NCBI RefSeq assembly: GCF_023973145.1
Contig: NZ_CP099546.1
Location: 744,001 to 808,000 of the forward strand
Source of the DNA: Natronosalvus vescus
GTDB taxonomy: Archaea > Halobacteriota > Halobacteria > Halobacteriales > Natrialbaceae
Length of the DNA: 64,000 bases
Direction: 5' to 3'
Every line of letters begins with the position of its first letter. Position 1 is the stretch's first letter. This document shows positions 36,539 through 58,100 of this stretch, one piece after another. Both the position numbers and the translations under genes were made by a program. Below the pieces are notes generated by a model, which saw only the letters and a program-made list of their open reading frames with translations, made no database searches and was not told where the DNA came from.

Positions 36539-37665
36539 CGGTCGTCACCTCCGAGGCCCGTTCGCTTGGCGATCATCCTGAACAGCTCGGGTGCGGCGAC
36601 GAACAGGACGACGAGCCCGACGATGCCGTCGATCAACTGGACGGGAACGCCGCTGTTGATCTGGACGTACGAACTCGAGGAGTCGAGCGCGCCGAAGAGC
36701 AAGGCGGCCGGAACGACGCCGAGTGGGTTGTTCGCCGCGAGCAGGCTGACGGCGATGGCGTCGAAGCCGTAGTTGCCGATGCCGCTCGGGTCGATGAAGT
36801 AGCCCTGCACCATGATCGCGAAGACGGCGCCGACGAGGCCGGCGACCATCCCCGAGACGGTCATCGTCGTCACGATCATGCGCTTCGAGGCGACCCCGGA
36901 GAACGTGGCCGCCGGCTCCTGGTGGCCGCTGGTCACCATGTCGTAGCCGAAGCTCGTTCGCGTCATGACGACGCTGATGACGACGACGACCGCGAGCGCG
37001 AGCAGGAGGCCGACGATCGAGAAGTTGGGGTTTTCGAACACCAGTTGCGGAAATCCAACGTTGTCAGGCAGATACGCGGTTCGCACCGACCGGGCGTCGT
37101 CGGGACGTAGCGGGCCGTCGACGGCCCAACCGACCAGCCCGATGGCGATGAAGTTCAACATAATGGTCGTGATGATCTCATTGGCCCCGTAGTAGGCCTT
37201 CAGCGCTCCGGGTAACGCCCCGTACAGCCCTCCTGTGACCGCAGCGACGACCAGCCCGAGGACGATCAACACGACGCCGCCGAAAGCGCCGGTCGGTAGA
37301 AACGGTGCGACCCAGATGATCGCCAGCACGCAGGAAATTCCGCCGATGATCAACTGCCCCTGGGCGCCGATATTGAACACGCCAGCCCGAAAGGCAACCG
37401 CGACGGCAACGCCGGCGAGGATGAACAACGTCGTGTATTGGAGCGTTCTCGAGAACGCCCGTTCGCTGCCGAATGCGCCGACGACCATGTCGCGGGCGAA
37501 TTGCAGCGGGTCGTGACCGACGGCGGCCACGATCACGAGGCCGATGAGGATCGCCAGTGTGGTCGAACCGATGGCGATGCCGATTCGCTCGTAGACCGAC
37601 GCGGTGAGCATGCGGTCGGCGGCGCGGTCGAGGCCGCGACGAAGTCGGCCCGGATCGTCGCTCAT
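36535..37665 (-). CDS. ABC transporter permease (BMP/nucleoside type), first permease
   Basis: A 376-residue permease with about nine to ten hydrophobic segments. FRAGVFNIGAQGQLIIGGISCV is the conserved block shared by this family, and GYDMVTSGHQEPAATFSGV resembles the ATPase-coupling loop. It overlaps the ATPase gene upstream and the second permease downstream by 4 bases each, so the three are translationally coupled and form one membrane complex. Confidence 0.9.
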   Translation of the reverse strand: MSDDPGRLRRGLDRAADRMLTASVYERIGIAIGSTTLAILIGLVIVAAVGHDPLQFARDMVVGAFGSERAFSRTLQYTTLFILAGVAVAVAFRAGVFNIGAQGQLIIGGISCVLAIIWVAPFLPTGAFGGVVLIVLGLVVAAVTGGLYGALPGALKAYYGANEIITTIMLNFIAIGLVGWAVDGPLRPDDARSVRTAYLPDNVGFPQLVFENPNFSIVGLLLALAVVVVISVVMTRTSFGYDMVTSGHQEPAATFSGVASKRMIVTTMTVSGMVAGLVGAVFAIMVQGYFIDPSGIGNYGFDAIAVSLLAANNPLGVVPAALLFGALDSSSSYVQINSGVPVQLIDGIVGLVVLFVAAPELFRMIAKRTGLGGDDR

Positions 37666-39284
37666 GACTGCACCTCGCCGTCGGTTCCGACGGTTTCGTC
37701 TGTCTCGACCGACTCGCCGTTTTTCCCTTCGAGCGACTGCGATTCGTCCTCGCCCTCGAGTCGCTTCCCCGCCATCAACAGACCGAGTTCCTCCTCGGTG
37801 ACCGCGTCCGGATCGACGATCTGGATGAACTCACCTTCATACATGACGGCGATACGGTCGGCGAGTTTCTGGATCTCGTCCAGCTTCGAGGAGACGACGA
37901 CGATGCCGAGTCCCGCATCGCGAAGCTCGATCAGCCGGTTGTGGATGAACTCGATCGAGCCGATGTCGACCCCGCGGGTCGGATGTGCGGCGACCATCAC
38001 GATCGGATCGTGCCCGATCTCGCGGCCGACGATGAACTTCTGCTGGTTGCCCCCCGAGAGCGAGGCCGCTCTCGTGTCCGGATTCGGTGGCTGGACGTCG
38101 AACTCCTCGATGATCTCCTCCGCGTGATCCGAAACGGCGCCCCAGTCGAGCCAGCCGTTGACGGCGTAGGGCTCGACCGTCTGGTTCCCCAGTAAGGTAT
38201 TTTTGACCAGGTCGTAGTTCTGTACCAGTCCCTCGGTCTGGCGGTCGCCCGGAATGTAGCCGATACCGAGTTCGATTCGATGGCGTCGACTCGTGTCCGT
38301 GATGTCGGTTCCCTCGAACCGGATCGTTCCCGATTCGACGGGCCGAAGCCCGGTGAGGGCCTCGGCGAGTTCGGCCTGGCCGTTGCCCTGGACGCCGGCG
38401 ATGCCGAGTATCTCGCTCTCGCAAACCGTGAGGTCGACGCCGCTGACCTGCTCGAGGCCCCGATCACCAATCACCGAAATCTCCTCGGCGGTGAGTACGG
38501 GGTCGCCCACGGGTGTGTCCCGGGTCGCCCGGTCGAACAGCACTTCCCGCCCGACCATCATCCGCGCCAGTTCCTGTTCGCTGGTATCGGCGGCGTCGAC
38601 CGTTCCGACCGCCTTGCCGTCCCGAAGCACGGTGATCAGGTCGGCGATCTGTAACACTTCGTCGAGTTTGTGCGAGATGAATATTAGCGACCGGCCTGCC
38701 TCCCGAAGGTCTTCCATCAGGGCCATCAGTCCGTCGACCTCCTGTGGCGTGAGGACGGCCGTCGGCTCGTCGAGGATGAGCGTCTCGGCCCCCCGGTAGA
38801 GGCTCTTGACGATCTCGACGCGCTGGCGGGTGCCGAGATCGAGTTCTTCGACGGGGGTGTCGAGGTGCTGGTCGACGTTGAAGCCGTAGCGCGCACAGAT
38901 CTCCTCGATGTCGGTTCGTGCCGCCGACTCGTCGACCAGCCCGTTCTCGGTCGGCTCGTGCCCCAGAATAACGTTCTGGAGAACCGTCATCGGCTCGATC
39001 AGCTGGAAGTGCTGGTGGATCATGCCGATCCCCTGTTCCATCGCGTCGTGGGGCGATTCGAACGTCTGAGGTTGGCCGTCGACGTAGATCGTGCCCGAAT
39101 CCTGGTCGTACAACCCGTACAGCACGCTCATGAGCGTCGTCTTGCCAGACCCGTTCTCGCCAAGCAGCGCGTGGATCGCCCCCTCCTCGAGGGTGAAATC
39201 GATGTCGTCGTTTGCGACGACGTCACCGAAGGTCTTGGTGATCCCCTCGAGTCTGACGTTCGCCGGTTCGTCACTTACAGCCAT
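37662..39284 (-). CDS. ABC transporter ATP-binding protein with two nucleotide-binding domains
   Basis: A 540-residue protein with two ABC domains, as in RbsA/NupO-type importers. Domain 1 has Walker A GENGSGKTT (residues 42-50) and LILDEPTAVLTPQEV. Domain 2 has a degenerate P-loop GVQGNGQAEL, usual in this family, and the signature SLSGGNQQK. It powers import through the two permeases. The start at 39284 (MAVSDEPANVRLEG) is preferred over the open frame to 39323. The acidic C-terminal tail is a halophile feature. Confidence 0.93.
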   Translation of the reverse strand: MAVSDEPANVRLEGITKTFGDVVANDDIDFTLEEGAIHALLGENGSGKTTLMSVLYGLYDQDSGTIYVDGQPQTFESPHDAMEQGIGMIHQHFQLIEPMTVLQNVILGHEPTENGLVDESAARTDIEEICARYGFNVDQHLDTPVEELDLGTRQRVEIVKSLYRGAETLILDEPTAVLTPQEVDGLMALMEDLREAGRSLIFISHKLDEVLQIADLITVLRDGKAVGTVDAADTSEQELARMMVGREVLFDRATRDTPVGDPVLTAEEISVIGDRGLEQVSGVDLTVCESEILGIAGVQGNGQAELAEALTGLRPVESGTIRFEGTDITDTSRRHRIELGIGYIPGDRQTEGLVQNYDLVKNTLLGNQTVEPYAVNGWLDWGAVSDHAEEIIEEFDVQPPNPDTRAASLSGGNQQKFIVGREIGHDPIVMVAAHPTRGVDIGSIEFIHNRLIELRDAGLGIVVVSSKLDEIQKLADRIAVMYEGEFIQIVDPDAVTEEELGLLMAGKRLEGEDESQSLEGKNGESVETDETVGTDGEVQS

Positions 39285-39338
39285 GGTACTCCAGTCGATG
39301 TATGCATGCGGGCCAAAGGTCAAAAGGTGTGCGGCTCG

Positions 39339-40523
39339 TTAGCAGCCGGTCGGTCCGCAGCTGAGCTCTATCTCATCGTCGAGGAACGCCTGTCTCGCGG
39401 CTTCGATGTTCTCTTCGAGGGAGTCGGGAAGTTCACCTTCGAACTCCTGACCGACGACGAAGTCGATCCCCTCGTTCTCGATGCTGAGGTTCTGTTCGCC
39501 CGAGACGCTTCCCCAGTCGTCTTCGTACACCGCTTCGGCGACCATGTACGTGGCCTCGTTGAGGGCTTTGATCGCCGAGCCGAGAATGACGTCTGCGTAC
39601 TGGTCGTCGGTGACCGACTGGTCGCTGTCGACGCCGAGGGCGAAGCGATCGTTGTCCTGTGCGGCAGAGAACGCCCCTGCGCCCGCTGCGGCCGCGGCGT
39701 GCCAGACGATGTCGGCACCGTCGTCGAACTGCGAACTGGCGACCTCGTTCAGCGCTTCGGAGTCGGAGAAGCTGCCACCGTAGCCGGTGAGCACCTCGAT
39801 GCTGTCGTCGACCCACTCGACGCCTTCGATGTAGGACTGCTCGAAGGCGTTGATCAGGTCGATGTCCTCGCCGCCGGCAAAGCCGACGATGGACTCGTCC
39901 GGATCGGTGGAACTATCGTCGTGTTCAATCTCCTCGTGGGTCAACGTTCCGGCAGCGACGCCCGCGAGGAACGACATCTCGTTGTTCATCTCGATCCAGC
40001 CCGAGACGTTCTCCGCACCCTCGACGTGGTCGTTGATGAGCATCCAGTACTGATCCGGGTACTGCTCGGAGTTCTCCGCCAGCCCCTCCCAGTGCTGGTA
40101 GCCGACCATCACGATGAGATCGTAGGAACCATCCGCAGCGAGGTCTTCCTGCCTGGCCGCGAAGTTGGCGGTCTCGGTCTCTTCGACCTGTGTAACCTCG
40201 AACCCGAAGTCGTCAGCTGCCTCCTCGAGCCCCTCGAGGGCGTTGTCGTTGAACGCGTTGTCGCCGAAGCCGGCGTCGCTCGAGATGATGGCGACCTGGT
40301 TGTCGGCGTCGGCGTCGCCATTGCCGTTACCGTTCCCGTTGCCATTGCCGTTGCCGTTGCCATTACCGTTACCGTTTCCGTCGTCGTCACCGTTCCCGAG
40401 ACACCCAGCGATCGCAATGCCACCGAGGGCTGCACTCGAGCCAAGTATCGATCGGCGAGAGATGCGCGATTTAGAGGACTCTACCGGTTCCTTCTCACCA
40501 TCATTGCCATTGGGTAGCACCAT
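39339..40523 (-). CDS. BMP-family substrate-binding lipoprotein
   Basis: A 394-residue lipoprotein of the BMP/Med/PnrA family, which bind purine or other nucleosides and sometimes sugars outside the membrane. The N-terminus has a Tat motif (R23-R24 in SRRSILG) and a lipobox IAGC with the lipidated cysteine at 41. Residues about 49-68 are a perfect (Asn-Gly)n linker encoded by six-base repeats. The ligand-binding domain begins at VAIISSDAGFGDNAFND and includes VGYQHWEG. It is the first gene of the importer operon, 54 bases before the ATPase gene. It ends in CGPTGC, an unusual cysteine-containing tail. Confidence 0.92.
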   Translation of the reverse strand: MVLPNGNDGEKEPVESSKSRISRRSILGSSAALGGIAIAGCLGNGDDDGNGNGNGNGNGNGNGNGNGNGDADADNQVAIISSDAGFGDNAFNDNALEGLEEAADDFGFEVTQVEETETANFAARQEDLAADGSYDLIVMVGYQHWEGLAENSEQYPDQYWMLINDHVEGAENVSGWIEMNNEMSFLAGVAAGTLTHEEIEHDDSSTDPDESIVGFAGGEDIDLINAFEQSYIEGVEWVDDSIEVLTGYGGSFSDSEALNEVASSQFDDGADIVWHAAAAAGAGAFSAAQDNDRFALGVDSDQSVTDDQYADVILGSAIKALNEATYMVAEAVYEDDWGSVSGEQNLSIENEGIDFVVGQEFEGELPDSLEENIEAARQAFLDDEIELSCGPTGC

Positions 40524-40827
40524 ACGTGGAATGTTACTACACAGATATTAAATCTTTTCGACAAACATTTCGACCGACGTTTTGGCTGTATTATCTGAGA
40601 TAAGTAACAATGTGTGTATGTGTTAGTGGGCTAATTATAGTTCGTAGGTAGCTTCGGGGAAGTACACGTATGTCCAGCCATCAATTCGACAGCCTGGAAT
40701 CCCACTCGGGAGCGAAACCGATCGGTGCGAAAGTCGGTCAAGATCCCTGGCGAGTCTCACACCGATCTCCAGTCGGCGCAGTGGCAGGGACACGATCGTG
40801 GTAGTGTCTGCGCCGATTCGACGGGCG
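40524..40827. promoter_or_regulatory. Promoter region of the BMP importer operon
   Basis: 304 bases without a gene. On the minus strand TTTAATATC (40544-40552) sits about 25 bases before the ATG at 40523, giving a leaderless mRNA. A near-perfect 13-base palindrome TTATCTGAGATAA at 40591-40603 lies about 40 bases upstream of that box and is a candidate activator or repressor site. The segment 40640-40827 has no recognisable feature. Confidence 0.5.
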
Positions 40828-41796
40828 TCAATCGGTGATCTCGGTCGTCGGCTGACCAACAGATCCAGCGAGGCGTTTACGATACACGCCGAGTGCCCCA
40901 TACAGTCCGATCTCGGTTCCGAGCGGAGTGATCTCGAGTTCCGGCCGGTCGACGAAGCAGTACCGCTCGAGGTAACGATCGATTCCCTCGAGCAGCCAGT
41001 CGGCATTGTTGAGCGCGACGCCGCCGCCCACTGTCACGCGACCCGGGTTAAACGAGTTACACAGCGTGCCGATGCCAGCGGCGTTGTACCGGGCGATCCG
41101 ATCCAGACAGTCGGTCGCGAAGCGATCCCCATCCGATGCGGCGTCGAAAACGTCCTGAGCGGTGAGTTCGCGTTCGATCTCCGAGAGGACGCTCCCATCG
41201 CCGTCTCCGTTCTCGAGGCGGTGAGCGACGTACTGTGGGATCCCTCGACCCGAACAGTACGCCTCCCAGGCGCCGGTGACCGCAGCGCTTTCGAGGGGGC
41301 CCTCCGGTTCGATCGGGAGGAGACCGAACTCGCCGGCCTGGCCGTGTTCGCCGCGAACGAGGCGACCGTCTTCGACGACACCGCCGCCGATTCCCGTGCC
41401 GAAGGTTACGTGGAGCAACGAGCGGACGTCACTCCGTTGCCCGAAGTACCACTCACCGAGTGCGGAGGCACTACAGTCATTTTCGACGACCGTCTCGAGG
41501 CCGAACCGACGTTCGATCGGGGTGGACAGATCCAGGTGCTCGATGAGTGCACCGTCCGGCGTATCGAACGCACTGATACACCCTGACTCGGGATCGACCA
41601 ATCCCGGTGCAGAGATCGCGACAGCATCCAGGGACTCCGATTCCAGCCGCGTCTCGAGTGTGTCGATCAGTTGCGTCTCGAGCGCGTGGGGTCGCGTCGG
41701 TTCCGTCGAGACTGCGGTCACAAAATCGCCCTCCGGCGTTCCGACCGTGTAGTGGAAGTTCGTGCTTCCGACGCCGAAGAGCGCAACGCGAGTCAT
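40828..41796 (-). CDS. ROK-family protein (sugar-kinase-like)
   Basis: A 322-residue protein of the ROK family (sugar kinases and repressors). The ATP and sugar-binding blocks are VTFGTGIGGGVVEDGRLVRGEHGQAGEFG and GRVTVGGGVALNN. No N-terminal helix-turn-helix is present, so a kinase is more likely than a repressor. The zinc motif CxCGxxGCxE found in most ROK kinases is missing: the region reads EPEGPLESAAVTGAWEAYCSG. The start at 41796 (MTRVALFGVGS) is the usual family beginning. It lies upstream of the importer operon on the same strand, which suggests phosphorylation of an imported sugar or nucleoside-derived pentose. Confidence 0.85.
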   Translation of the reverse strand: MTRVALFGVGSTNFHYTVGTPEGDFVTAVSTEPTRPHALETQLIDTLETRLESESLDAVAISAPGLVDPESGCISAFDTPDGALIEHLDLSTPIERRFGLETVVENDCSASALGEWYFGQRSDVRSLLHVTFGTGIGGGVVEDGRLVRGEHGQAGEFGLLPIEPEGPLESAAVTGAWEAYCSGRGIPQYVAHRLENGDGDGSVLSEIERELTAQDVFDAASDGDRFATDCLDRIARYNAAGIGTLCNSFNPGRVTVGGGVALNNADWLLEGIDRYLERYCFVDRPELEITPLGTEIGLYGALGVYRKRLAGSVGQPTTEITD

Positions 41797-41920: not shown

Positions 41921-43255
41921 TTACGCATCCATCGCCGAGTCCGATACCTCGAGGGCGACGTCGATCGCGTCGATCGCGGCGTCGACGTCTTCCCGGGTGA
42001 TCGTCAGCGGCGGGGAGATGATCAGCGTGTTGATCATGTTCGCCACGTAGGTGCCGTTCTCGAGGGCGGTCGCCGCCACCTCGTCGACGATGGTCGACCC
42101 CTTCGAGAGCTTGTCCGCTCGCGTGCCGAAGGGCTCGCGCCCGTCGCTCCGCTTCGTGAGTTCGATGCCGTGGAACAGGCCGATACCCCGCGTGTCACCC
42201 ACGCTCGGGTGACTGTCGGCCAGGTCGTCGATCCGACCCTCGAGGTACTCGCTCATCTCGCTCGAACGCTCGATGAGGTTCTCCTTTTGGTAGGTTTCGA
42301 CGGCGGCGAGCCCGGCGGCGCAGGCGACGGGATGACCTGCGTAGGTGTGGCCGTGAGTCAGCATGTTGTCCTCAAAGTGGTCGGCAATCTCGTCGGTCAC
42401 AGTAGTCGCCGCGAGCGGCGCATATGCCCCCGAGAGTCCCTTGGCCATCGTCATGATGTCGGGGGTGACGTCGTAGACATCGCTGCCAAACCACTCGCCG
42501 GTGCGGCCGAACCCGGTCATGACCTCGTCACAGATGAGCAGTGCGCCGTGGTCGTGGGCGATCTCCTTGAGCCGGGGGAGGTACTCCGGCGGCGGGACGA
42601 GGATCCCGTTAGAGCCGACGATCGGTTCGACCAGGACGGCCGCAACCGTGTCGCCCTCGAGCATCAGCATCTCGTCGATGTACTCGAGGCTCTCCATGGG
42701 ATCGAGCGTCGAGCCGTAGGCGTAGGGGTCGGGCGCTTTGATCATTCCGGGGATACCGGGTTCGGCGGCGAGGCGTCTCGGATCGCCAGTGACGCTGATC
42801 GAGCCAGCCGTCGCGCCGTGATAGGAGCGGTAGCGCGAGATGATCTTGTCCTTCCCCGTGTAGAATTTGGCAATTTTGAGGGCGGCTTCGACGGCTTCGG
42901 TGCCGCTGGTCGAGAAGAACGTCTTCGAGAGATTGCCTGGGGTGACGTCGGCGAGTTTTTCGCCGAGTTTGGCTCGCGCCTCGGTGGCAAACCCGGGCGC
43001 AAAATACGCTCCGTTCTGGGCTTGTTCGGCGATGGCGTCGGCGACGGCATCGGCCGAGTGGCCGAGGTTCGAACACATGAGCTGTGCGGAGAAATCGATG
43101 TACTCGGTGCCATCGGCGTCGGTGAACGTCACCCCGTCGCTCTCGACGATCTGTGTCGGTGCGACCTCGCTCTGGTAGGCCCACGTGCCGAAGACGTACT
43201 CCTTATCGAGCGCCTCGATTTCGTTGAGATCTGCCGCATAGTCGCCTGTTGCCAT
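41921..43255 (-). CDS. Class III aminotransferase (omega-amino acid:pyruvate/beta-alanine type)
   Basis: A 444-residue PLP enzyme of the class III aminotransferases, with the PLP lysine K272 in MAKGLSGAYAP, the aspartate of CDEVMTGFGRTG and the substrate region SYHGATAGS. Family members move amino groups from omega-amino acids such as beta-alanine, GABA, taurine or putrescine to pyruvate or 2-oxoglutarate. It is divergent from a CoA-acylating semialdehyde dehydrogenase, which is the next step for beta-alanine (malonate semialdehyde to acetyl-CoA) or beta-aminoisobutyrate. The exact substrate is inferred from this pairing only. Confidence 0.88.
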   Translation of the reverse strand: MATGDYAADLNEIEALDKEYVFGTWAYQSEVAPTQIVESDGVTFTDADGTEYIDFSAQLMCSNLGHSADAVADAIAEQAQNGAYFAPGFATEARAKLGEKLADVTPGNLSKTFFSTSGTEAVEAALKIAKFYTGKDKIISRYRSYHGATAGSISVTGDPRRLAAEPGIPGMIKAPDPYAYGSTLDPMESLEYIDEMLMLEGDTVAAVLVEPIVGSNGILVPPPEYLPRLKEIAHDHGALLICDEVMTGFGRTGEWFGSDVYDVTPDIMTMAKGLSGAYAPLAATTVTDEIADHFEDNMLTHGHTYAGHPVACAAGLAAVETYQKENLIERSSEMSEYLEGRIDDLADSHPSVGDTRGIGLFHGIELTKRSDGREPFGTRADKLSKGSTIVDEVAATALENGTYVANMINTLIISPPLTITREDVDAAIDAIDVALEVSDSAMDA

Positions 43256-43430: not shown

Positions 43431-44903
43431 ATGTCACACGATAGCTCAGCCTCAGGTGGCGATGTGCGAAACTACGTCGACGGCGACTGGGTCGCCCCGA
43501 CGGCCGACGACGGCCAGGACGTCGTCAACCCCGCTACCGGGGAGACCCTCGGCTACGTCGGATACAGCTCCGAAGACGACGTGGATGCAGCCGTCCAGGC
43601 TGGCGCCGACGCGTTCGAACAGTGGCGACGGACGCCGGTCGAAGCGCGCATCCAGCCGCTGTTCGAACTCAAACCGCTGCTCGAGGAACACCAGCAGGAA
43701 CTCGCCGAGATTCTCGTTCGAGAGCACGGCAAGACGATTGGCGAGGCCCGCGGCGAACTCCGTCGAGGAATCGAGAACGTCGAGGTCGCCTGCGGTATCC
43801 CGACGCTGATGCAGGGGGGCCACGTCCAGAACGCTGCCCCGTCGATCGACGAGACGGCCGTCAGAGAGCCCCTGGGCGTGTTCGCCGCGATCACACCGTT
43901 CAACTTCCCCGGCATGATCCCGCTGTGGTTCCTCCCCTATGCGGTGGCGACCGGCAACAGCTTCATCTTGAAACCGAGCGAGCGTGATCCACTCGTCGCC
44001 GAGCGGATGTTCGAACTCATCGACGAGGCCGGCTTCCCCGACGGTGTCGTTCAACTGGTCAACGGCAGCGTCGACACCGTCACCGCCCTCATCGAACACG
44101 ACGGCATCGAAGGAATCTCCTTCGTCGGCAGCACGCCCGTTGCCAAACACGTCTACGAACAGAGCGCCGCCAACGGCAAGCGCGTCCAGGCACAGGGCGG
44201 GGCGAAAAACCACGTCATCGTCTCCGAGACCGCCGACCTCGAGTTCGCTGCCGAAAAGACCGTCAGCTCGGCGCTAGCCTGCTCGGGTGAGCGGTGTCTC
44301 GCAAACGACGTCGTGCTCGTCGAGGAGTCGGTGTACGAGTCGTTCGTCGACCTCGTCGCCGCGGAAGCCGACCGCCAGGTCGTCGGCAACGGCCTCGAGG
44401 AAGACACGACCGTCGGCCCGCTCATCACGCCGGAACACGAACAGCGGGTTCGCGAGTACGTCGAGACGGGTCTCGAGGAGGGGGCCGAACTGGTCGTCGA
44501 CGGGCGGGACGTCGACGTCGACGAGGCTGGGAACTTCCTCGGCCCGTGTGTCTTCCGGGACGTCACCCCCGAGATGGTCATCTCTCGAGAGGAGATCTTC
44601 GGCCCGGTGCTCGGACTGATGCCCGTCGAGAACGTCGCCGAGGGGATCGAGGTCATGAACCGCAGCGACTTCGGCAACGCCGCCAGCCTCTTTACGGGAA
44701 GCGGCGCGGAGGCCCGGCAGTTCCGCCACGAGGCCGAGGCCGGAAACCTCGCGGTCAACGCAGGCACCGCCGCGCCGATGGCGTTCTTCCACTTTGGCGG
44801 TCAGAAGGACTCGTTCTTCGGCGACCTCCACGCGCAGGCCGAGGACGTCGTCCGATTCTACACCGACGAGACGGTCTACATCGAGCGCTGGCCCGAGGAG
44901 TAA
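43431..44903 (+). CDS. mmsA: CoA-acylating (methyl)malonate-semialdehyde dehydrogenase
   Basis: A 490-residue aldehyde dehydrogenase that converts malonate or methylmalonate semialdehyde to acetyl-CoA or propionyl-CoA with NAD+ and CoA. The catalytic cysteine is C289 in SGERCLA; TPFNFP holds the oxyanion asparagine N159. The usual general-base glutamate is replaced in GGAKNHVIV (N260), the hallmark of the CoA-acylating MMSDH subgroup. It serves valine, beta-alanine or inositol breakdown; the adjacent omega-aminotransferase favours beta-alanine. A TATA box at 43401 gives a near-leaderless transcript. Confidence 0.93.
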   Translation: MSHDSSASGGDVRNYVDGDWVAPTADDGQDVVNPATGETLGYVGYSSEDDVDAAVQAGADAFEQWRRTPVEARIQPLFELKPLLEEHQQELAEILVREHGKTIGEARGELRRGIENVEVACGIPTLMQGGHVQNAAPSIDETAVREPLGVFAAITPFNFPGMIPLWFLPYAVATGNSFILKPSERDPLVAERMFELIDEAGFPDGVVQLVNGSVDTVTALIEHDGIEGISFVGSTPVAKHVYEQSAANGKRVQAQGGAKNHVIVSETADLEFAAEKTVSSALACSGERCLANDVVLVEESVYESFVDLVAAEADRQVVGNGLEEDTTVGPLITPEHEQRVREYVETGLEEGAELVVDGRDVDVDEAGNFLGPCVFRDVTPEMVISREEIFGPVLGLMPVENVAEGIEVMNRSDFGNAASLFTGSGAEARQFRHEAEAGNLAVNAGTAAPMAFFHFGGQKDSFFGDLHAQAEDVVRFYTDETVYIERWPEE

Positions 44904-44984: not shown

Positions 44985-45503
44985 TCACTCCTCTTTTTGC
45001 ACGATTCCCTTCATGTCGTCCGACATCACCGACACGACGCTCGGGGAGCTTTTGATCTCGTCCATGACGAACCGCGAAGAGGTCTCTTTGACGCCGTCGA
45101 TGCCGACGATTTCGTCGAGCACCTCGTTCATCTGCTCGCGATCCTGGACGCGCATGATGGTGACGAAATCGACGTCCCCCATCGTGTAGTAGACCTGTTC
45201 GATGCCGTCGATCCCGGCGAGATCCGTGCCGATGTCCTCGGAGTAGCCCTGCTCGTGTGTCACCGCCACCTCGGTGATCGCCACCATGTCGAGGCCGAAC
45301 GGCACCGGGTCGAGGTCGGCGGTGACGCCCTTGATCACCCCGCGCTTTTTGAGCTTCTCGAGGCGGTAGTGGATCGCCGATTTCGACAACCCAAGCTCTT
45401 CGGAGAGGACGTTGAGGTTGACGTCGAAGTCGTTCTCTATGTACTCGAGCAGGTCGATATCGGTCTGATCGAAGGTCTCGGCTCGAGAGCGAGTTTTTGA
45501 CAT
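44985..45503 (-). CDS. Lrp/AsnC-family transcriptional regulator
   Basis: A 172-residue regulator with an N-terminal winged HTH (about residues 11-60, LGLSKSAIHYRLEKLKKRGVIKG) and a C-terminal RAM ligand-binding domain (VAVTHEQGYSEDIGTDLAGIDGIEQVYYTMGDVDFV). These proteins sense amino acids or related metabolites and form octamers. The start ATG 45503 (MSKTRSRAETF) is set by family length; the upstream open frame lacks resemblance. It is convergent with mmsA, with 81 bases between, and is the best local candidate regulator for the aminotransferase-mmsA pair. Confidence 0.92.
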   Translation of the reverse strand: MSKTRSRAETFDQTDIDLLEYIENDFDVNLNVLSEELGLSKSAIHYRLEKLKKRGVIKGVTADLDPVPFGLDMVAITEVAVTHEQGYSEDIGTDLAGIDGIEQVYYTMGDVDFVTIMRVQDREQMNEVLDEIVGIDGVKETSSRFVMDEIKSSPSVVSVMSDDMKGIVQKEE

Positions 45504-45678
45504 ACGCTCAGTTGAGCACGGTGAAACATAAAAGAGGTGTGTTATTTCCGCAATCGTCGGGTCGCCGTCGAGGACACTGGCTATTTTCGGGCGTGGTACC
45601 GAACCGCGGATAGTGAACAAAACCGACCACATGGGTCGGGGTTCTCGCCCTGCACCGCCTATAGAGGAATTCTTGACG

Positions 45679-46449
45679 TCACTCGAGTTCCCGTTCGACG
45701 ACCAGCCCGTGCTCGTGTGCCTTTCGAGCGACGCCGACCGTCAGCGCGTGGTAGGCACCGCCGAGGTCGGCGTCGATCTGAACGTCGTCCAGGCCGCCGA
45801 TCACGACAACGTCCGAGAGGACGTCGGCGGCCGAGTGAGTGACTGCAACCGCCGCGTCGGGAGCCAGGTACGGCGTCGTCGACGTCGTGATGGCCTCGGT
45901 CACGGCCGGGTCGGCGCCGTCGGCGGGCACCTCGGCCGTGAAGCGCTGACCCTCGTAGCGTAGATCGAGTTCGACACCAGCACCGACGTCTCGGGGCGAA
46001 ACGGTGATCTTCCCGTCGTTCGTCTCGAACGAAATCGTCTCACCCACGGTCGTCCGGCGTTCGGTACCAGAACGTTCGGTACCGACGTCGGCCACCGCCC
46101 TGGCGAGTGCCGGGTTCGGCAGTCCCGCTGGATGGCTGACGACGGCGTCGGGGCCGCGCTCGCTCGAATAACAGATCCGGTGTTCGGGCCTCGTGAAGTC
46201 CCACTCGCTGGTGATCCCGACGACGTTCGCGGCCGTGACGCCACCCAGTCGAAGCGGCCCGAGAACGTGTTCGACGACGAAGGCGCGGTTTCTCGAGACG
46301 CCCTCGAGCGATTCGACCAGATCGACGCGAACGTCGGCCTTGCGGACGTGCTCGAGGGTCGCCGGAATCCCGTTGATCCGGATGCCCGGCTCGTCGCTCG
46401 GTTCGACGCGGACGTACTCGCCTTCGGCGGGTTCGGTGACGGTTCTCAT
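45679..46449 (-). CDS. LpxC-like zinc deacetylase family protein (function unknown)
   Basis: A 256-residue protein with the residue pattern of the bacterial deacetylase LpxC. AFVVEHVLGPLRLGGV gives E60 and H61 (E78 and H79 in E. coli LpxC). THSAADVLSDVVVIGG gives H205, D209 and D213 (H238, D242, D246). YHALTVGVARKA gives H234 (H265). Spacings (144 and 29 residues) are close to LpxC (159 and 27). Between them GVELDLRYEGQRFTAEV matches the start of the second LpxC domain. It lacks an insert present in LpxC. Archaea have no lipid A, so another N-acyl or N-acetyl substrate must be acted on. It is the last gene of the SDR-M20-M20-like operon and overlaps the preceding gene by 4 bases. The family call is by eye. 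Confidence 0.55.
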   Translation of the reverse strand: MRTVTEPAEGEYVRVEPSDEPGIRINGIPATLEHVRKADVRVDLVESLEGVSRNRAFVVEHVLGPLRLGGVTAANVVGITSEWDFTRPEHRICYSSERGPDAVVSHPAGLPNPALARAVADVGTERSGTERRTTVGETISFETNDGKITVSPRDVGAGVELDLRYEGQRFTAEVPADGADPAVTEAITTSTTPYLAPDAAVAVTHSAADVLSDVVVIGGLDDVQIDADLGGAYHALTVGVARKAHEHGLVVERELE

Positions 46450-47381
46450 CGGGATCCCTCGATCCCTTTCGCTCCCATTTCCAGCGTCTCGATCGTTCGC
46501 TCGAGCAGCCGACGACACGTCTCGACGTCCTCGGCGTCGAACGACTGGCCCGCAGCGCCGGTTCCGAGGGCGAGTTTGTTCGGGCTGGGAACCGCCGTGA
46601 ACGGCGCGGTCGGTGGGAGCCACGCGTACTCGTCGTCCCCTACGATCGAGACGTGGGCGGCCTCGGCCGCTTCTCGAACCGCTGGGTCGGGAACCGCCCG
46701 TTGGACGCCGCTCAGGCGCTCGAGACGAACATTCGTGACGCCCGAACAGTCCTCGAAACGGGCCTCGACAGCGTCGGCCGTCGTCGCTGGCGTCGTCCGG
46801 ACGTCGAACGCGACGACCATCGTCTCATCGGCGACCTGCATCGACTCGAGCGCGAACGTCGTCATTCCCGTTGTGAACACCCCCAGGTCGTCGTCGTCGA
46901 CCGGGTAATACTCGTGGTCAGGCTGGGCTGCCTCGAGCACCGACCCCACTCGCTCGTGATCGTCGGCCACGCGATTCCCTGCCGAGCGCTCTAGGGTGAC
47001 GGTTACCGTCGCCCGGCCGCGAGACACCGTCCCCAGGCGGCCGCCCAGGGGCTCGAGGACGAGCCACGGCCCCTCGGCGGTGAGATCAAATTCTGCCTCC
47101 GGGTAGTGCAACCGGGCGTCGGAGTCGGCGGTCACCGTCGCGGCGGCTGCGAGCAGCCCGGCCCGTGCGCCATCAGTGCCGACGTAGGCGTCTCGTTCCG
47201 GGCCGCCGTCTTCTGGCTCGATCGTTGCCCGGTCGACGGCCGAGAGCAGGTCGTCGCCCTCGAGTGAGTGAGCCAAGACGTTCACCCCATCGCCGTCGAC
47301 ACCGGCGAGCGCCCGCTCGCGAACGGTCTCGAGCGACGGAAGCTGTCCGTCTTCCAATTCGCCGGAGCCACCCTCAACCAT
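46446..47381 (-). CDS. Degenerate M20-peptidase-like protein (probable pseudoenzyme)
   Basis: A 311-residue protein whose second half follows the M20 (ArgE/DapE) peptidase fold: RGRATVTVTLERS opens the dimerisation domain, MVVAFDVRTTPATTADAVEARF is its last strand and helix, and LALGTGAAGQSFDAEDVETCRRLL occupies the place of the final metal-binding segment. The HxD zinc motif is absent, and the last zinc histidine is replaced in GQSFDAEDV. Only GTDGARAGLLAAAATV resembles the bridging-aspartate region. It is therefore probably inactive as a peptidase and may serve as a partner. It overlaps the true M20 gene by 8 bases and the LpxC-like gene by 4. Confidence 0.6.
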   Translation of the reverse strand: MVEGGSGELEDGQLPSLETVRERALAGVDGDGVNVLAHSLEGDDLLSAVDRATIEPEDGGPERDAYVGTDGARAGLLAAAATVTADSDARLHYPEAEFDLTAEGPWLVLEPLGGRLGTVSRGRATVTVTLERSAGNRVADDHERVGSVLEAAQPDHEYYPVDDDDLGVFTTGMTTFALESMQVADETMVVAFDVRTTPATTADAVEARFEDCSGVTNVRLERLSGVQRAVPDPAVREAAEAAHVSIVGDDEYAWLPPTAPFTAVPSPNKLALGTGAAGQSFDAEDVETCRRLLERTIETLEMGAKGIEGSR

Positions 47382-48639
47382 CTAGCTCCCCCATCAAATC
47401 GGCCGTGGCCGCGGCCATCACCTTCGCCGCGGTGACGACCTCCTCCGTTGGCACGTACTCGTCTTCGACGTGGGCCTGCTCGAGCAACCCCGGCCCGTAG
47501 ACGATACACTCCTCGATGCCGGCGTCGTTGACGACGAAGCGCTGGTCGTCCGACCCCGGCGAGACGACGTACTCGGGTTTCCCGTGGTGAGGTTCGATCT
47601 CGCGGGCGAACGACTGGGCGACCGTACAGTCCCGGGAGACGATGGCGGGTTCGGCGAACATGATCTCCTCGTACTCGACACGGGTACCGGTCGCGGCCTC
47701 GGTCTCGGCCATCAGCGTTTGAATCTCCTCGCGAGCGCTCTCGACGCTCTCTTCGGGTACCAGCACGCGGTAGAACGTCGAGGTACACCGGTCGGGGACG
47801 ACGTTCTCGGAGTAGCCCGCGTCGATCATCGTCGCCGAGATGTCGGCTCGGGCGGACTCCGACGGGACGACGGGTTCGTCGGTCGTCCGCTCGTGGAGAC
47901 GGTCGCGGTAGGCGTCGATCCGGGTGAGGAAGTCGTTCATCGCCATCACGGCGTTGTGCCCGTCGTGGGCCATGCAGCCGTGGGCCTTCTCGCCGTGTGT
48001 GCGAACTCGGAACTTCAACACGCCGCGGTGGCCGAGACAGATGCGCGAGGAGTCGAAACACTCGGTGTAGACGCAGTAGTCGGTGTTCTCCGCGGAGAGG
48101 TGCCCCTCCCGCACCAGTTCACCCAGGCCGGTGAACCCGCCGGTCTCCTCGTCGACGGTCATGCTCTGGGTGATCGTTCCTCGGATTGGTACGTCGAGTT
48201 CCCGGAGGGCGTCGATCGCGAGCACGCTCGCGGCGATGCCCGATTTCATATCGCTCGAGCCGCGGGCGTAGAGCTTTCCGTCCTCGAGACGGGGCTCGTA
48301 GGGGTCGGTCGCCCAGTCCTCGCCCGCCGGCACCACGTCGAAGTGGCCGGTGAAGTGAATGTCAGGTCCCTCCCGTCCCTCGTCCAGGTGGGCGAGGACG
48401 TTCACTCGCTCGTGATCGGTTCGATCCGGGTAGTACTCGGCGACGACGGACTCGGGGACGGTGAGCAGGTCGACGTCGTAGGTGCGCGCCTCGAGCTGGT
48501 CGCGGAGGAATTCTGCGCCCTCGCGGTAGTTCATGCCCGGCGGATTTTCGGTCTCAATGCGCAGGAACTCCTCGAGGAATGCGAGGCCCTCCTCGTACTT
48601 TCGGTCGACGGCGTCGGTGATCGCGTCGCGTGTCGTCAT
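47374..48639 (-). CDS. M20-family metallopeptidase/deacylase (ArgE/DapE type)
   Basis: A 421-residue enzyme with an intact M20 metal site: FTGHFDVVP (first zinc histidine and aspartate), ARGSSDMKSG (bridging aspartate), VDEETGGFTG (catalytic glutamate pair), a later YTECFD acid and a C-terminal histidine in GLLEQAHVEDE. The dimerisation domain begins at LGHRGVLKFRVRTHGEKAHG. Such enzymes cleave N-acyl or succinyl groups from amino acids or act as dipeptidases in the cytoplasm. It lies 12 bases after the SDR gene and overlaps the M20-like gene by 8 bases, so it is part of the four-gene operon. Confidence 0.9.
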   Translation of the reverse strand: MTTRDAITDAVDRKYEEGLAFLEEFLRIETENPPGMNYREGAEFLRDQLEARTYDVDLLTVPESVVAEYYPDRTDHERVNVLAHLDEGREGPDIHFTGHFDVVPAGEDWATDPYEPRLEDGKLYARGSSDMKSGIAASVLAIDALRELDVPIRGTITQSMTVDEETGGFTGLGELVREGHLSAENTDYCVYTECFDSSRICLGHRGVLKFRVRTHGEKAHGCMAHDGHNAVMAMNDFLTRIDAYRDRLHERTTDEPVVPSESARADISATMIDAGYSENVVPDRCTSTFYRVLVPEESVESAREEIQTLMAETEAATGTRVEYEEIMFAEPAIVSRDCTVAQSFAREIEPHHGKPEYVVSPGSDDQRFVVNDAGIEECIVYGPGLLEQAHVEDEYVPTEEVVTAAKVMAAATADLMGELDG

Positions 48640-48651
48640 CTCGTGGCCACC

Positions 48652-49401
48652 TCAGATGTCACGTCCACCGTCGACCTCGAGCGCCGTCCCCGTTATCATT
48701 GCGGCATCCTCGCTGGCGAGGAAGACGGCCGCGGCGGCGACGTCCGTCGGTTCACACAGCCGCCCCAGCGGGATGGTGTCGTGCATCGACTCGACGCTGA
48801 GGTCGCCGGCGGCGAAGTCCTGTAACATGGGCGTGTCCGTCGCGACCGGGCAGATGGCGTTGACTCGGATGCCGTCGTCGGCCAGTTCGTAGGCGAGTTG
48901 TTTCGTCAGTCCGACCATGCCCGCCTTCGAGGCGACGTACGCCGAGAGGCCGGTTCGTGGCCGTATCGCCGCCGTCGAGGCCGTGTTGAGAATCACGCCG
49001 GCGTCGGACTCGCGCAGGTGTGGCACCGCGTACTTCGTTCCGAGGAAGGCGCTTTTGAGGTTGACGTCCTGGATCGCGTCCCACGTCTCTTCGTCGACGT
49101 CTTCGACGGGCGTCGACTCCTGTGGAATGCCGGCGTTGTTGTGCAACACGTCCAGGCCGCCGAACTCGGTGACGGCTCGGTCGATCATCCCCTCGACCGC
49201 CTCCGGGTCGGAGACGTCGGCGACGTGGGTCACGGCATCCCCGCCGTCGGCGCCGATGGCGTCGGCGGTCGATTCCGCGGCGGTTTCCTCGAGGTCGACG
49301 ACCAGGACGCTCGCCCCCACGTCGGCGAACCGCCGAGCGGTCGCCTCACCCATGCCCGAGCCAGCGCCGGTCACGATCACGCGTTGGTCACTATCATGCA
49401 T
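48652..49401 (-). CDS. Short-chain dehydrogenase/reductase (SDR)
   Basis: A 249-residue classical SDR. The NAD(P) motif is TGAGSGMG (11-18), NNAG follows at 88-91, and the catalytic residues are S142, Y155 and K159 (YVASK). D36 in VVDLEE suggests NAD preference. Family substrates include sugars, 3-oxoacyl compounds and alcohols. It is the first gene of the operon with the M20 enzyme, the M20-like protein and the LpxC-like protein, so a hydroxyl or keto compound carrying an N-acyl group is a reasonable shared substrate, by inference only. Confidence 0.92.
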   Translation of the reverse strand: MHDSDQRVIVTGAGSGMGEATARRFADVGASVLVVDLEETAAESTADAIGADGGDAVTHVADVSDPEAVEGMIDRAVTEFGGLDVLHNNAGIPQESTPVEDVDEETWDAIQDVNLKSAFLGTKYAVPHLRESDAGVILNTASTAAIRPRTGLSAYVASKAGMVGLTKQLAYELADDGIRVNAICPVATDTPMLQDFAAGDLSVESMHDTIPLGRLCEPTDVAAAAVFLASEDAAMITGTALEVDGGRDI

Positions 49402-53119: not shown

Positions 53120-54142
53120 TTAGTCAGCCCAGTGGTGACAGGCCACCGATCCGATTCCCGTGTCTTCGAGGTCAGGATCCTCGACCTCACACTGCCGTTG
53201 ATCCCCCTCAGCCAACTCGGGCTTCAACTGGCATCGTGGATGGAAGTTACAGCCAGTGGGCGGATCGGCCGGATCCGGCGGCGTGCCCTCGAGGTGAATC
53301 CGGTCGTCCGACCGGCCACCAGTGCCGACGGTCGGCACGCTCGAGAGCAGCGACTGCGTGTAGGGGTGTTTGGGATCCTCGAACAGCGTCTCGACGTCGG
53401 TCAGTTCGACGATTCGGCCGAGATACATGACGGCCACACGGTCGGCGATATGCCGGACGACGCTCATGTCGTGGCTCACGAACAGGAACGTGAGGTCGTA
53501 CGTCGTCTGTAACTCCTCGAGCAGCGAGAGGATCTGTGCCTGTACGGAGACGTCGAGTGCACTCACCGGCTCGTCTGCGACGACGATGGATGGATTCAAC
53601 GCGAGGGCTCGAGCGATCCCGACGCGTTGACACTGCCCGCCGGAGAGCTCGTGGGAGAATCGGTTGAAGTGGTCGTTCGGATCGAGCCCGACGACGTTGA
53701 GTAGCTCGCGAACACGCTCGTTCGGGTTCTCGACGCCACCGTGAATGCTCATCGGCTCCTTGATAATTCGTCCGACGGTCATTCGGTCGTTGAGGCTGGC
53801 AGAGGGATCCTGGAAAATCATCTGGAGATCCCGCCGAATCCGTCGAAGCTCCGATCTGTCGAGGCTAGCGAGATCCTTGCCATCGTAGCGAACCGTGCCG
53901 GCTGTCGGTTCGTGTAACTGGAGAAGCGTTTCAGCCAGCGTGGATTTCCCGCAGCCAGATTCGCCGACGATCGCTAAGGTTTCCCCCGGATAGAGGTCGA
54001 AACTCACGCCGTCGACGGCTTTGACGTCACCGACGTGGCGATTGAGGATCCCGCTGGTAATCGGATAATACTTCTTCAGATTTTCGACACTCAAGAGTGG
54101 CTCGGTCGTCACACGCTCCTCGGTCGGTGACGGTATGGTCAT
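53120..54142 (-). CDS. dppF: Peptide ABC transporter ATP-binding protein (DppF/OppF type)
   Basis: A 340-residue ATPase with Walker A GESGCGKS (60-67), the signature LSGGQCQR, Walker B IVVADEP and the oligopeptide-transporter C-terminal region with clustered cysteines (TGCNFHPRC). The N-terminal VENLKKYYPITSGILNRHVGDVKAVDGV is typical of OppF/DppF. It overlaps the DppD gene by 4 bases. Both ATPase genes face away from the substrate-binding protein and permease genes, which lie on the other side of a 326-base region. Confidence 0.92.
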   Translation of the reverse strand: MTIPSPTEERVTTEPLLSVENLKKYYPITSGILNRHVGDVKAVDGVSFDLYPGETLAIVGESGCGKSTLAETLLQLHEPTAGTVRYDGKDLASLDRSELRRIRRDLQMIFQDPSASLNDRMTVGRIIKEPMSIHGGVENPNERVRELLNVVGLDPNDHFNRFSHELSGGQCQRVGIARALALNPSIVVADEPVSALDVSVQAQILSLLEELQTTYDLTFLFVSHDMSVVRHIADRVAVMYLGRIVELTDVETLFEDPKHPYTQSLLSSVPTVGTGGRSDDRIHLEGTPPDPADPPTGCNFHPRCQLKPELAEGDQRQCEVEDPDLEDTGIGSVACHHWAD

Positions 54143-55116
54143 CGGTGATACTCCTCCGTGTGGATGTAACAGGCGCTCATTCGTTGGGGGCCGAATTCGA
54201 CGTCGGGTGGGCGCTCCTCTTTACAGAGCGGTTTAGCGTCTGGACACCGGGGGTGGAACCGACAGCCGGATGGCGGGTTGGCGAGGTTCGGTGGCATTCC
54301 GTCTATCGGATCCAGTTCACCTGGATTGTCGATTCTGGGGACGCTGTTCAGGAACGTTCGCGTATAGGGATGTTTTGGGTCGGCAATGATCTCCTCGAGC
54401 GACCCTTTCTCGGCAATCCGACCGGCGTACATCACGATCACGTCGTCACACACCTCCGAGACGACGCCGAGGTCGTGCGTGATCATCAACAGCGCCATCT
54501 CTCGAGTCTCCTGCAATCGTTCGAAGAGATCGATCACCTGGGCCTGAATCGTCACGTCCAGTCCGGTCGTCGGTTCGTCCGCGATCAGCAAGTCCGGCTC
54601 ACACGCCAGCGCCTGGGCGACGAGTGCACGCTGGGCCATCCCTCCGGAGTACTCGTGTGGATAGCGGTTGACGGCTTCCTCCGCGTTCGGTATCCCGACC
54701 TCCTCGAGCAGGCTGATCGCCCGCTCGTGTGCCTCCTGTTTACTAACATCCTCGTGGGCACGAATCCCTTCCGCGATCTGGTAGCCGACCGTGTACGCAG
54801 GATCGAGCGCGGAGCGTGGCTCTTGGAACACCATCGCGATTTCGTTGCCGCGAATAGCGCGAAGTTCGTCGGTGCTCATCTCGAGTACGTCGCGCCCTTT
54901 CCAGCGGACGGTGCCCGATTTGATCTCGCCGGGCGATTCGATGAGGCGGACGATCGAACGAACAGACACCGATTTCCCACTGCCACTCTCTCCGACGATA
55001 CCGACGGCATTGCTGGGGGAGACCGTATAAGAAATGTCATCCACTGCAGACACTTCCCCTTCGCTCGTCCGAAAGGTGGTTGTAAGATTTTCAACCTCCA
55101 ATAACGGGTCTGCCAT
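54139..55116 (-). CDS. dppD: Peptide ABC transporter ATP-binding protein (DppD/OppD type)
   Basis: A 325-residue ATPase with Walker A GESGSGKS (43-50), signature YSGGMAQR, Walker B LLIADEP and the C-terminal cysteine region [15 protein letters not shown]. It pairs with DppF to drive di- or oligopeptide import. The start ATG 55116 ([11 protein letters not shown]) is the family start; the upstream open frame to 55227 contains cysteine- and histidine-rich leader sequence without resemblance. It is divergent from the substrate-binding protein gene at 55443. Confidence 0.92.
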
Positions 55117-55442
55117 TTGTGTACATCTGTGTGAGTGAGGACAAAGGCTTTTCCCTGGCCGGTTCGATTTATTCTCGTCTGAAGGAGACATACAAACGCA
55201 GGATGCGTCTGTCGTCCACATCTGCACACGTATTTCGGTGGTGGTCTCGGTATCGAAATTTCGTTTAATGATTTACGATACCTGGTCAATATCATTCAAT
55301 GCTAATTGGGGGCACGGACGCCACAACTTTCGGTAGAGAGGCGCCATCGGCACACTCTTCTCACTGTTTGTGTTTGTACTAATGTCTCCAAAACTGATCT
55401 AAACCAGCAGCTATAGGTGGATAGAACAGTATCCTAATAATC
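55117..55442. promoter_or_regulatory. Divergent control region of the split peptide transporter
   Basis: 326 bases without a gene. On the plus strand CTATAGG (55411-55417) lies about 26 bases before the ATG at 55443, consistent with a leaderless transcript. No clear TATA box was identified for the minus-strand ATPase genes. Because both halves of one transporter start here, shared regulation through this segment is expected. Confidence 0.5.
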
Positions 55443-57077
55443 ATGGACAATATGGAAGATCCTGGTGAGAATGTGGGTGAAAGAAGAAAATTCCTCAAGC
55501 TGGCCGGTGTCGTCGGTGCCAGTGCGCTCGCGGGGTGTATGGGTGGTGATGACGATGAAGACGACGGTAACGGGACACCCGACCTCGGCGACGACAACGG
55601 CAACGGAGACGATGAACCTGACGAAGTAACCGAGGGTGGAACGCTTCGAGTCGGCTACGAAGCCGACCTGACGGGACTGGATCCGCACAACATTTCGAGC
55701 GTCGTCTCGTGGAACGCGATATACAACATCTGTGAGACACTGATCACGTTCGACGACGGTGAAGCGGTCGGTCGACTCGCCGATGACTACGACGTCGACG
55801 GAACGACGTATACGTTCCACCTGAAAGAGGGCGTTCAGTTCCACGACGGCTACGGCGAGATGACCGCCGACGACGTGGTCTACTCGTTCGAACGTATGAT
55901 GGACGAGGAAGCCTCGACGAGTCCAGATCTGCTCGCGACCGTCGAGGACGTGCGTGCCGTCGACGAATACGAGGTCGAAGTCGAACTCCAGGAGACGTTC
56001 GGCCCGTTCTTACAGTATCTCGCCCGTGTCCACTGGGTCATCGTGCCAGAAGACGCCGTCGAGGAGCAGGGTGGGAACATCGACGACTTCCAGGAGCCGG
56101 TCGGCACCGGACCGTTCGCGTTCGAAGAGTACACCCCGGACAACAGCCTCGTGATGTCGGCGTTCGACGATTATCACGTCGAGGACGCCCCTCACGTCGA
56201 CGAGGTCGAACTAATCATTACCCCGGATCCGGACTCGCGCGTACTGGCACTACAAAACGACGACCTCGACTTCGCTCGTGAGATTCCGGGTCGACACGCC
56301 GAATCCCTCCAGAACGATGACGATACGAAAGTCGCCCTGAGCGAAGCAACCGGGTGGGCAATGATCCACATCAACTGCAGTGAACCACCGTGGGATGATC
56401 CCGCCGTCCGACGCGCCGCTGCCCACGTCATCGACCGCGATGCGGTTATCGACGCCGCACTCTTCGGCTTCGGGTCGGCCGGTGTTCAGCCGTTCCCGGA
56501 AGGAAACGTCTGGAACTACGACCTCGATAACGAACGCTGGCAGGATCTCGAGGAAGCCCAGCGCATCCTCGAGGAGGCCGGAAACCCGCTCGAGGGCGAA
56601 ACGCTCGAGATCAAAGTCACCAGCGAGTACTCCATTCAGGAAGCGATGGGCGAAATCATCCAGGCTAACTTCGCCGAAATCGGTGTCGACGTCGAACTCA
56701 ACAACCAGGAGTGGGGTACTCATCTCAACGACTTCGTCGAATCGAACTTCGGTGCGCTGTCGTTCTCGGTTCCCTACAAGGTCGACCCCGACCGCCACTA
56801 CTACGGGTTCCTCGTCGAAGACGGGTACAACAAGTACAACGACGAACAACCCGACGCCGACCGCGTCCGTGAGCTCCTCGAGCTTGGTCGCGACGAACTC
56901 GACGAGGACGAACGTCTCGATATATACGCCGAACTCGAGGGACTCGTCCAGGAACACGTTCCGTGGGTATCGGTCGCTCACACCGACGACATCAATGGCC
57001 TCCGTGCGAACGTTTATGGATTCGAGGAGTGGACGCTTCCGTACGACCGCTACTGGACGATGTGGGTCGACGAGTAG
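55443..57077 (+). CDS. Peptide ABC transporter substrate-binding lipoprotein (SBP_bac_5)
   Basis: A 544-residue extracytoplasmic lipoprotein. The Tat motif is R14-R15 (ERRKFLKLAG) and the lipobox cysteine is C32 in ALAGCMGG, followed by an acidic linker (DDDEDDGNG). The SBP family 5 core begins at GTLRVGYEADLTGLDPHN and has HLKEGVQFHDGYGEMTADDVVYSFERM and FAFEEYTPDN. It delivers peptides to the DppBC permeases. The start at 55443 is supported by the TATA element at 55411; a second ATG at 55452 is possible. Confidence 0.93.
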   Translation: MDNMEDPGENVGERRKFLKLAGVVGASALAGCMGGDDDEDDGNGTPDLGDDNGNGDDEPDEVTEGGTLRVGYEADLTGLDPHNISSVVSWNAIYNICETLITFDDGEAVGRLADDYDVDGTTYTFHLKEGVQFHDGYGEMTADDVVYSFERMMDEEASTSPDLLATVEDVRAVDEYEVEVELQETFGPFLQYLARVHWVIVPEDAVEEQGGNIDDFQEPVGTGPFAFEEYTPDNSLVMSAFDDYHVEDAPHVDEVELIITPDPDSRVLALQNDDLDFAREIPGRHAESLQNDDDTKVALSEATGWAMIHINCSEPPWDDPAVRRAAAHVIDRDAVIDAALFGFGSAGVQPFPEGNVWNYDLDNERWQDLEEAQRILEEAGNPLEGETLEIKVTSEYSIQEAMGEIIQANFAEIGVDVELNNQEWGTHLNDFVESNFGALSFSVPYKVDPDRHYYGFLVEDGYNKYNDEQPDADRVRELLELGRDELDEDERLDIYAELEGLVQEHVPWVSVAHTDDINGLRANVYGFEEWTLPYDRYWTMWVDE

Positions 57078-57148
57078 TCGATCCGTCGCCATCTCACGAG
57101 ATAGCATCACCTCACAACGCTTCACCCCCATATGACGCCAACTAACGT

Positions 57149-58099: not shown

Positions 58100-58100
58100 T

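Follow-up and report, generated by a model that had tools for sequence, protein, structure and literature searches.

In LpxC, the deacetylase of lipid A synthesis, H79, H238 and D242 bind zinc, E78 serves as the base and H265 as the acid (PMC6286764). D246 tunes H265, T191 contacts bound phosphate, K239 contacts the pyrophosphate of UDP and the 6-hydroxyl of the glucosamine, and the product binds the domain II insertion together with the domain I insertion (PMC6286764). The fold is called unique, with no match to other known architecture, in a review (PMC6281622), and the papers surveyed give the LpxC fold one function, lipid A synthesis. In the open-access literature, we found nothing on an archaeal LpxC relative.

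We analyzed a stretch of 64,000 nt from Natronosalvus vescus (NZ_CP099546.1, assembly GCF_023973145.1, positions 744,001-808,000 of the forward strand), which is referred to as the window throughout. The host is a haloarchaeon and makes no lipopolysaccharide. One gene in the window encodes a protein, here called LpxCl, that carries the catalytic residues of LpxC. Our preferred reading is that LpxCl is probably a cytoplasmic LpxC-fold zinc amidohydrolase that does not serve lipid A and that, with its neighbor M20b, replaces the hydrolase M20_2 in a catabolic operon.

A haloarchaeal family with the catalytic residues of LpxC

The LpxCl gene runs on the minus strand from an ATG at 46449 to a stop codon at 45681-45679. 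The gene and its putative catalytic positions are:

45679-46449, minus strand: LpxCl, candidate LpxC-fold zinc hydrolase, 256 amino acids plus stop
46267-46272, minus strand: codons of E60 (putative general base) and H61 (putative zinc ligand), paired by hhalign with E. coli LpxC E78/H79, invariant in 10/10 members
45874-45876, minus strand: codon of T192, paired by hhalign with E. coli T191, invariant
45811-45837, minus strand: HxxxDxxxD motif with H205 and D209 (putative zinc ligands) and D213 (predicted to orient the acid histidine), E. coli H238/D242/D246
45748-45750, minus strand: codon of H234 (putative general acid), E. coli H265

A class-wide search of 391 genomes produced matches in 11, of which 7 genomes with 8 loci were retained and four were discarded as chance (E 1.3e-4 to 4.4e-4). 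Two of the discarded matches, in G199 and G136, were judged by eye and are presumably of the ureohydrolase/agmatinase type, and the other two, in G006 and G176, crossed stop codons. Scanning one genome per species with two near-exact peptide patterns, which distant bacterial relatives could escape, recovered 7 loci, including two added species, Halorussus halobius and Salinigranum salinum. A further search led to the rejection of all five matches outside the own genome (by eye, we take three to be ureohydrolases and two to be molybdopterin-pathway proteins), and a partial match in G646 (E 5.3e-4) was also set aside. No relatives were found in plasmids and viral contigs.

LpxCl is a real, conserved haloarchaeal family of 10 distinct proteins, the other nine of which are 44-69% identical to the window protein. 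E60, H61, H205, D209, D213 and H234 are invariant in all ten, and a check of the homologues for loss of the histidines and aspartates found every one of these six residues kept. T192 is a seventh invariant catalytic residue (10/10). The spacing of the motifs also resembles that of LpxC: H61 and H205 lie 144 residues apart and H205 and H234 29 apart, compared to 159 and 27 in E. coli, distances given in a first-pass annotation of the window and confirmed here against NC_000913 LpxC. One member, from an uncultured Halobacteria MAG (L018, 10001-10852), has an in-frame, repeat-rich insert of DDTRxD-like units directly before the conserved RAFVVEH motif.

LpxCl and M20b occupy the place of an M20 hydrolase in a catabolic cluster

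LpxCl belongs to a tight minus-strand operon in the order SDR, M20a, M20b, LpxCl; neither this catabolic operon nor the M20-fold neighbor had been recognized in the first-pass annotation. M20a starts 12 bases after the SDR gene, the M20b gene overlaps the end of M20a, and the M20b stop overlaps the LpxCl ATG by 4 bases. The neighboring genes of the window are:

48652-49401, minus strand: SDR dehydrogenase, first gene of the operon
47374-48639, minus strand: M20a, ArgE/DapE-type M20 hydrolase with its metal ligands kept
46446-47381, minus strand: M20b, 311 amino acids, predicted to have an M20-family fold but lacking the M20 metal ligands
44985-45632, minus strand: Lrp/AsnC-type regulator, conserved in the cluster
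43431-44903, plus strand: MMSDH-type aldehyde dehydrogenase, TIGR01722 over cut-off, conserved in the cluster
41921-43255, minus strand: class III aminotransferase (AT3), conserved in the cluster
53120-59000: dipeptide-type ABC transporter, two ATPases on the minus strand, binding protein and two permeases on the plus strand
62857-64000, minus strand: ALDH2, BADH-type aldehyde dehydrogenase, running past the window end
61836-62813, minus strand: LeuB-type dehydrogenase (second copy), immediately after ALDH2

The other genes of the cluster, which encode an SDR, an Lrp regulator, dehydrogenases of the MMSDH and BADH types and a class III aminotransferase, suggest amide catabolism in which the amine part would be transaminated and the other part would bear an alcohol. 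The LpxCl operon probably breaks down an amide. Counterparts of the ABC transporter, ~30-50% identical, occur in other LpxCl clusters. The second LeuB gene, which starts 43 bases after ALDH2, was not seen in those clusters; the other LeuB copy of the genome (66% identical) lies elsewhere in an apparent leu/ilv cluster, with neighbors that we take, by eye, to be leuC, leuD and ilvC. LeuB had a single match in 13 of 14 other genomes and three in G311. Adjoining the aminotransferase gene, the window also holds a PnrA/Bmp-type ABC transporter, probably for nucleosides, and a ROK-family protein (35447-41796); the PnrA/Bmp-type genes were not seen in other LpxCl clusters.

At E <= 1e-100, M20a was detected in 17 of 382 genomes, of which 6 carry LpxCl and 11 lack it. 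We compared the gene content of 20-kb stretches around the 11 M20a loci without LpxCl with that of nine LpxCl loci (the window, L015, L017, L019-L023 and L028), leaving out the G376 contig, which starts at LpxCl. M20_2, an M20 hydrolase of the ArgE/DapE group, was found together with an SSS sodium symporter in all 11 M20a loci without LpxCl and in none of the nine LpxCl loci, and M20b with LpxCl showed the opposite distribution (9/9 versus 0/11). Genome-wide, no M20_2 orthologue at >=70% identity was detected in any of the seven LpxCl genomes (7/7), where the best M20_2 matches fall at the place of M20a with 34-36% identity. Exceptions are G161, with a 59% relative elsewhere, and G345, with none at threshold. 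By comparison, M20_2 of L068 shares 71-83% identity with the M20_2 proteins of sister clusters. Both cluster versions are spread across several families, and the loci are neither all independent nor one clade.

Since the transporter is part of the swap, the versions may handle different substrates instead of replacing each other. LpxCl would then be active without being the replacement of M20_2: the ABC/LpxCl and symporter/M20_2 versions would import and open different amides, and both would feed the same later enzymes. This possibility draws on the change of transporter with hydrolase, the SSS symporter accompanying M20_2 in every one of its loci and dipeptide-type ABC genes occurring in six of the nine LpxCl loci and beside M20a in G376; such ABC genes were also present in L069, of the M20_2 set. 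However, M20a, SDR, ALDH2, AT3 and ALDH are ~60-88% identical between the versions, which suggests the same intermediates. We consider different amides possible but unlikely, and continue to favor replacement of M20_2 by LpxCl and M20b.

M20b, a partner of predicted M20 fold

M20b adjoins LpxCl, upstream, in every locus where that place was sequenced. An initial assignment by eye of M20b as an M20 relative by sequence was supported by neither hhalign nor Pfam: the alignment of M20b with M20a/M20_2 was not significant, and none of nine M20b sequences gave an M20 Pfam match in a run in which M20a matched. Fold prediction does support the relationship. The AlphaFold2 model of M20b (mean pLDDT 72) returned in Foldseek, among the matches listed, only M20-type or beta-alanine synthase/carbamoylase-type hydrolases (best E 1.9e-10), some of which we presume to belong to these families. 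Structural alignment gave Z 15.2 over 280 residues with an rmsd of 8.8, which in the model probably stems from domain orientation, and comparison with the DapE catalytic domain gave Z 12.5 over 169 residues with an rmsd of 3.2.

The M20 metal ligands (HxD, D, EE, E/D and the C-terminal H) are absent from the nine M20b sequences, in which H156, E221 and H243 are the only invariant acidic or histidine columns, whereas the M20 motifs do not vary among the M20a and M20_2 sequences. M20b is best read as a protein of predicted M20 fold without an M20 metal site. Compared to M20 hydrolases of the ArgE/DapE group, the LpxCl-M20b pair shares the genomic place of M20_2 and, in M20b, the predicted fold. 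It differs in that LpxCl is of another predicted fold and M20b has no HxD, DEE or C-terminal histidine ligands. A diverged second copy of the pair in Halorussus litoreus (L021, 9021-10738) has neither M20a nor another cluster gene within 20 kb, and its M20b starts with a twin-arginine-like leader that we did not see in other M20b.

With a neighbor that resembles a dead enzyme, the operon has dead partners, and LpxCl, inseparable from M20b, might itself have borrowed the fold for a regulatory or inactive role as a subunit, binding M20a or M20b for instance. A dead subunit should lose some of its catalytic residues, whereas the seven in LpxCl are invariant down to 44-47% identity, and we regard inactivity as improbable compared to our preferred reading of LpxCl as an active amidohydrolase.

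Relationship of LpxCl to LpxC

For profile comparisons, LpxCl sequences were aligned in two sets of eight, A1 and A2, which together cover the 10 distinct proteins. The reference alignment, A3, comprised 12 bacterial sequences, E. coli LpxC (NC_000913) and eleven further LpxC or LpxC-type proteins whose sources were ten plasmid records and a viral contig. Catalytic residues are invariant in A3 except for T191, which is S in one of the 12 sequences. Comparison of A2 with A3 by hhalign gave a probability of 93.8 and, unprompted, paired E60/H61, T192, H205, D209, D213 and H234 with E78/H79, T191, H238, D242, D246 and H265, reproducing the correspondence of six of these residues that the first-pass annotation had drawn by eye. 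Replacing A2 with A1 lowered the probability to 85.3 and left the residue pairs unchanged.

The hhalign score in a rerun was 54.8. Column shuffles (100) averaged 14.6 and never exceeded 21.9, reversing the LpxC alignment gave 20.7, and two unrelated alignments scored 14.4-14.6. Domain II alone scored 36.9 (best of 100 shuffles, 20.7), and domain I alone scored 33.0 (best of 100 shuffles, 27.2), covering only 27 residues around the EH motif. When the A2 profile was searched against PDB sequences, the top matches were eight Aquifex LpxC entries (E 0.025-0.029), with EH paired with EH. The Pfam family PF03331 weakly matched 6 of 8 LpxCl members (best E 0.0012); at its curated family score, there was no match for the window protein or in its own genome.

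An AlphaFold2 model of LpxCl, built from eight sequences, had a mean pLDDT of 59, with values of 64-92 in blocks of ten for residues 131-256 and mostly below 50 for residues 1-128. All 50 Foldseek matches listed were LpxC entries (best E 1.2e-5). In VIA-align, the first 43 matches were LpxC (Z 13.5 to 8.9), followed by a chain of a ribosomal complex (Z 7.5). The best match of domain II reached Z 13.5 over 124 residues with an rmsd of 2.9, and most untrimmed matches aligned 160-173 residues across both domains with an rmsd of 3.5-4.4. As modeled, the second domain of LpxCl is an LpxC fold. Because domain I was modeled poorly, the placement of E60/H61 in it rests on the alignment, which also underlies the proposed convergence of these residues on a single site; the predicted structure bears on that expectation for domain II.

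LpxCl and LpxC have in common the predicted domain II fold, the zinc ligands and general base, T191, the D246/H265 pair, and the order and spacing of motifs. They differ most clearly in the domain II insertion, which in LpxC contributes to the site for substrate and acyl chain and is absent from LpxCl, where 13 residues separate T192 from H205 compared to 47 between T191 and H238 in E. coli. The first-pass annotation had recognized a shortening and placed it between the two domains. A stretch is indeed lost, but within domain II; the inter-domain stretch is longer in LpxCl, with ~70 residues from H61 to the first domain II strand compared to ~48 in E. coli. Domain I carries ~23 extra residues at its end, with a conserved stretch EWDFxRPEHRxxY...HPAGLPNP, and the N-terminal part before EH is shorter (59 versus 77 residues).

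Motifs of the LpxC substrate site are also missing. The position of K239 is occupied by S, A or W in the LpxCl sequences (8/8), in contrast to K in 11 and R in one of the 12 bacterial sequences. None of eight LpxCl members has GxGLHxG, and DGS is absent from its LpxC place in the ExPxxDGS motif, with one of the eight carrying a DGS near the C-terminus. All 12 bacterial sequences have G17, H19, G21, E100, P102 and DGS. LpxC sits in the lipid A pathway, whereas LpxCl lies in a catabolic operon of a host in which no lipid A pathway was found: searches of the genome for LpxB and LpxK found neither, and LpxA gave 10 partial matches, all far under the cut-off. Since GxGLHxG, DGS and K239 are absent and LpxB and LpxK were not found, lipid A deacetylation, the function of LpxC itself, is very unlikely for LpxCl. 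The earlier suggestion of a different acyl-chain pocket is not supported, given the same absences and the loss of the domain II insertion, and a pocket for a long acyl chain is not expected in LpxCl. By inference, LpxC inhibitors that thread the acyl passage would not be expected to bind it well.

LpxC homologues do exist outside lipid A operons. Like LpxCl, the Paraburkholderia homologue WP_165190183.1, of a polyketide synthase cluster, is such a case; it retains both GxGLHxG and DGS and shares 30% identity with E. coli LpxC across 93% of its length, and LpxCl is far more distant. On plasmid pII of Paraburkholderia dioscoreae (L036, 4974-5888), an LpxC homologue immediately follows the gene of a type I polyketide synthase and is itself followed by aminotransferase and GNAT genes. 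LpxCl could accordingly be imagined as a true LpxC, one whose deacetylation of an acylated sugar nucleotide would feed an archaeal glycolipid or a glycan of the cell surface, given that every catalytic residue is kept and that homologues such as the Paraburkholderia protein occur outside lipid A operons. Set against this are the missing domain II insertion, K239, GxGLHxG and DGS at its place, the genome without LpxB or LpxK, and conserved neighbors that, where of known family, are catabolic or transport genes, which together make a true LpxC very improbable. Chance or convergence in an unrelated protein, suggested by the failure of the single window sequence to match anything significantly in Pfam, NCBIfam or the PDB sequences, can be dismissed as negligible because the profile score lies far above all shuffles, each domain beats its own shuffles, and the fold search gives LpxC first with no close alternative. 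Profiles, fold search and conservation instead support LpxCl as a new and divergent LpxC-fold branch that has retained the catalytic site, in agreement with the new subfamily proposed at first pass.

Discussion

The conservation of residues, the coupling of LpxCl to M20b and the swap with M20_2 were observed in the genomes, and the domain II fold is predicted. From here we infer zinc binding, catalysis, a complex with M20b and the substrate class. In our preferred reading, an LpxC-fold amidohydrolase in a catabolic operon, H61, H205 and D209 would hold zinc, E60 would activate water, and T192 would assist the oxyanion. H234, tuned by D213, would protonate the leaving amine, as in LpxC. With the acyl-chain insertion and the nucleotide-binding lysine lost, LpxCl would act on a smaller, soluble amide. 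Produced together with M20b, it would stand in, as a pair, for the active M20_2.

More tentatively, and with a probability we rate as low, M20b and LpxCl may form one enzyme, a dead M20 scaffold with an LpxC-fold catalytic subunit, and the cluster may degrade pantothenate. The M20b scaffold would keep the substrate-binding part and LpxCl would supply the zinc chemistry, amounting to an exchange of the catalytic subunit. Cutting the amide of pantothenate would release beta-alanine for AT3 and the MMSDH-type enzyme, and pantoate for SDR, ALDH2 and the extra LeuB paralogue. By general biochemistry, pantothenate fits the enzymes of the cluster. The idea is weaker for other genomes because the extra LeuB occurs only in the window cluster. 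The SSS symporters of the sister clusters matched PutP better than PanF, neither over cut-off, so that pantothenate is neither proven nor excluded, and a search of the open-access literature on pantothenate breakdown found no gene for comparison. Pantothenate is therefore a lead and not a result.

An archaeal family with an intact active site from which the lipid part has been removed shows the bare catalytic core of LpxC. It suggests that LpxC chemistry is usable outside envelope synthesis, and, as a lipid-free model, LpxCl may help in studying the mechanism. The exchange with an active M20 hydrolase also allows a direct complementation test of the role proposed for LpxCl and M20b.
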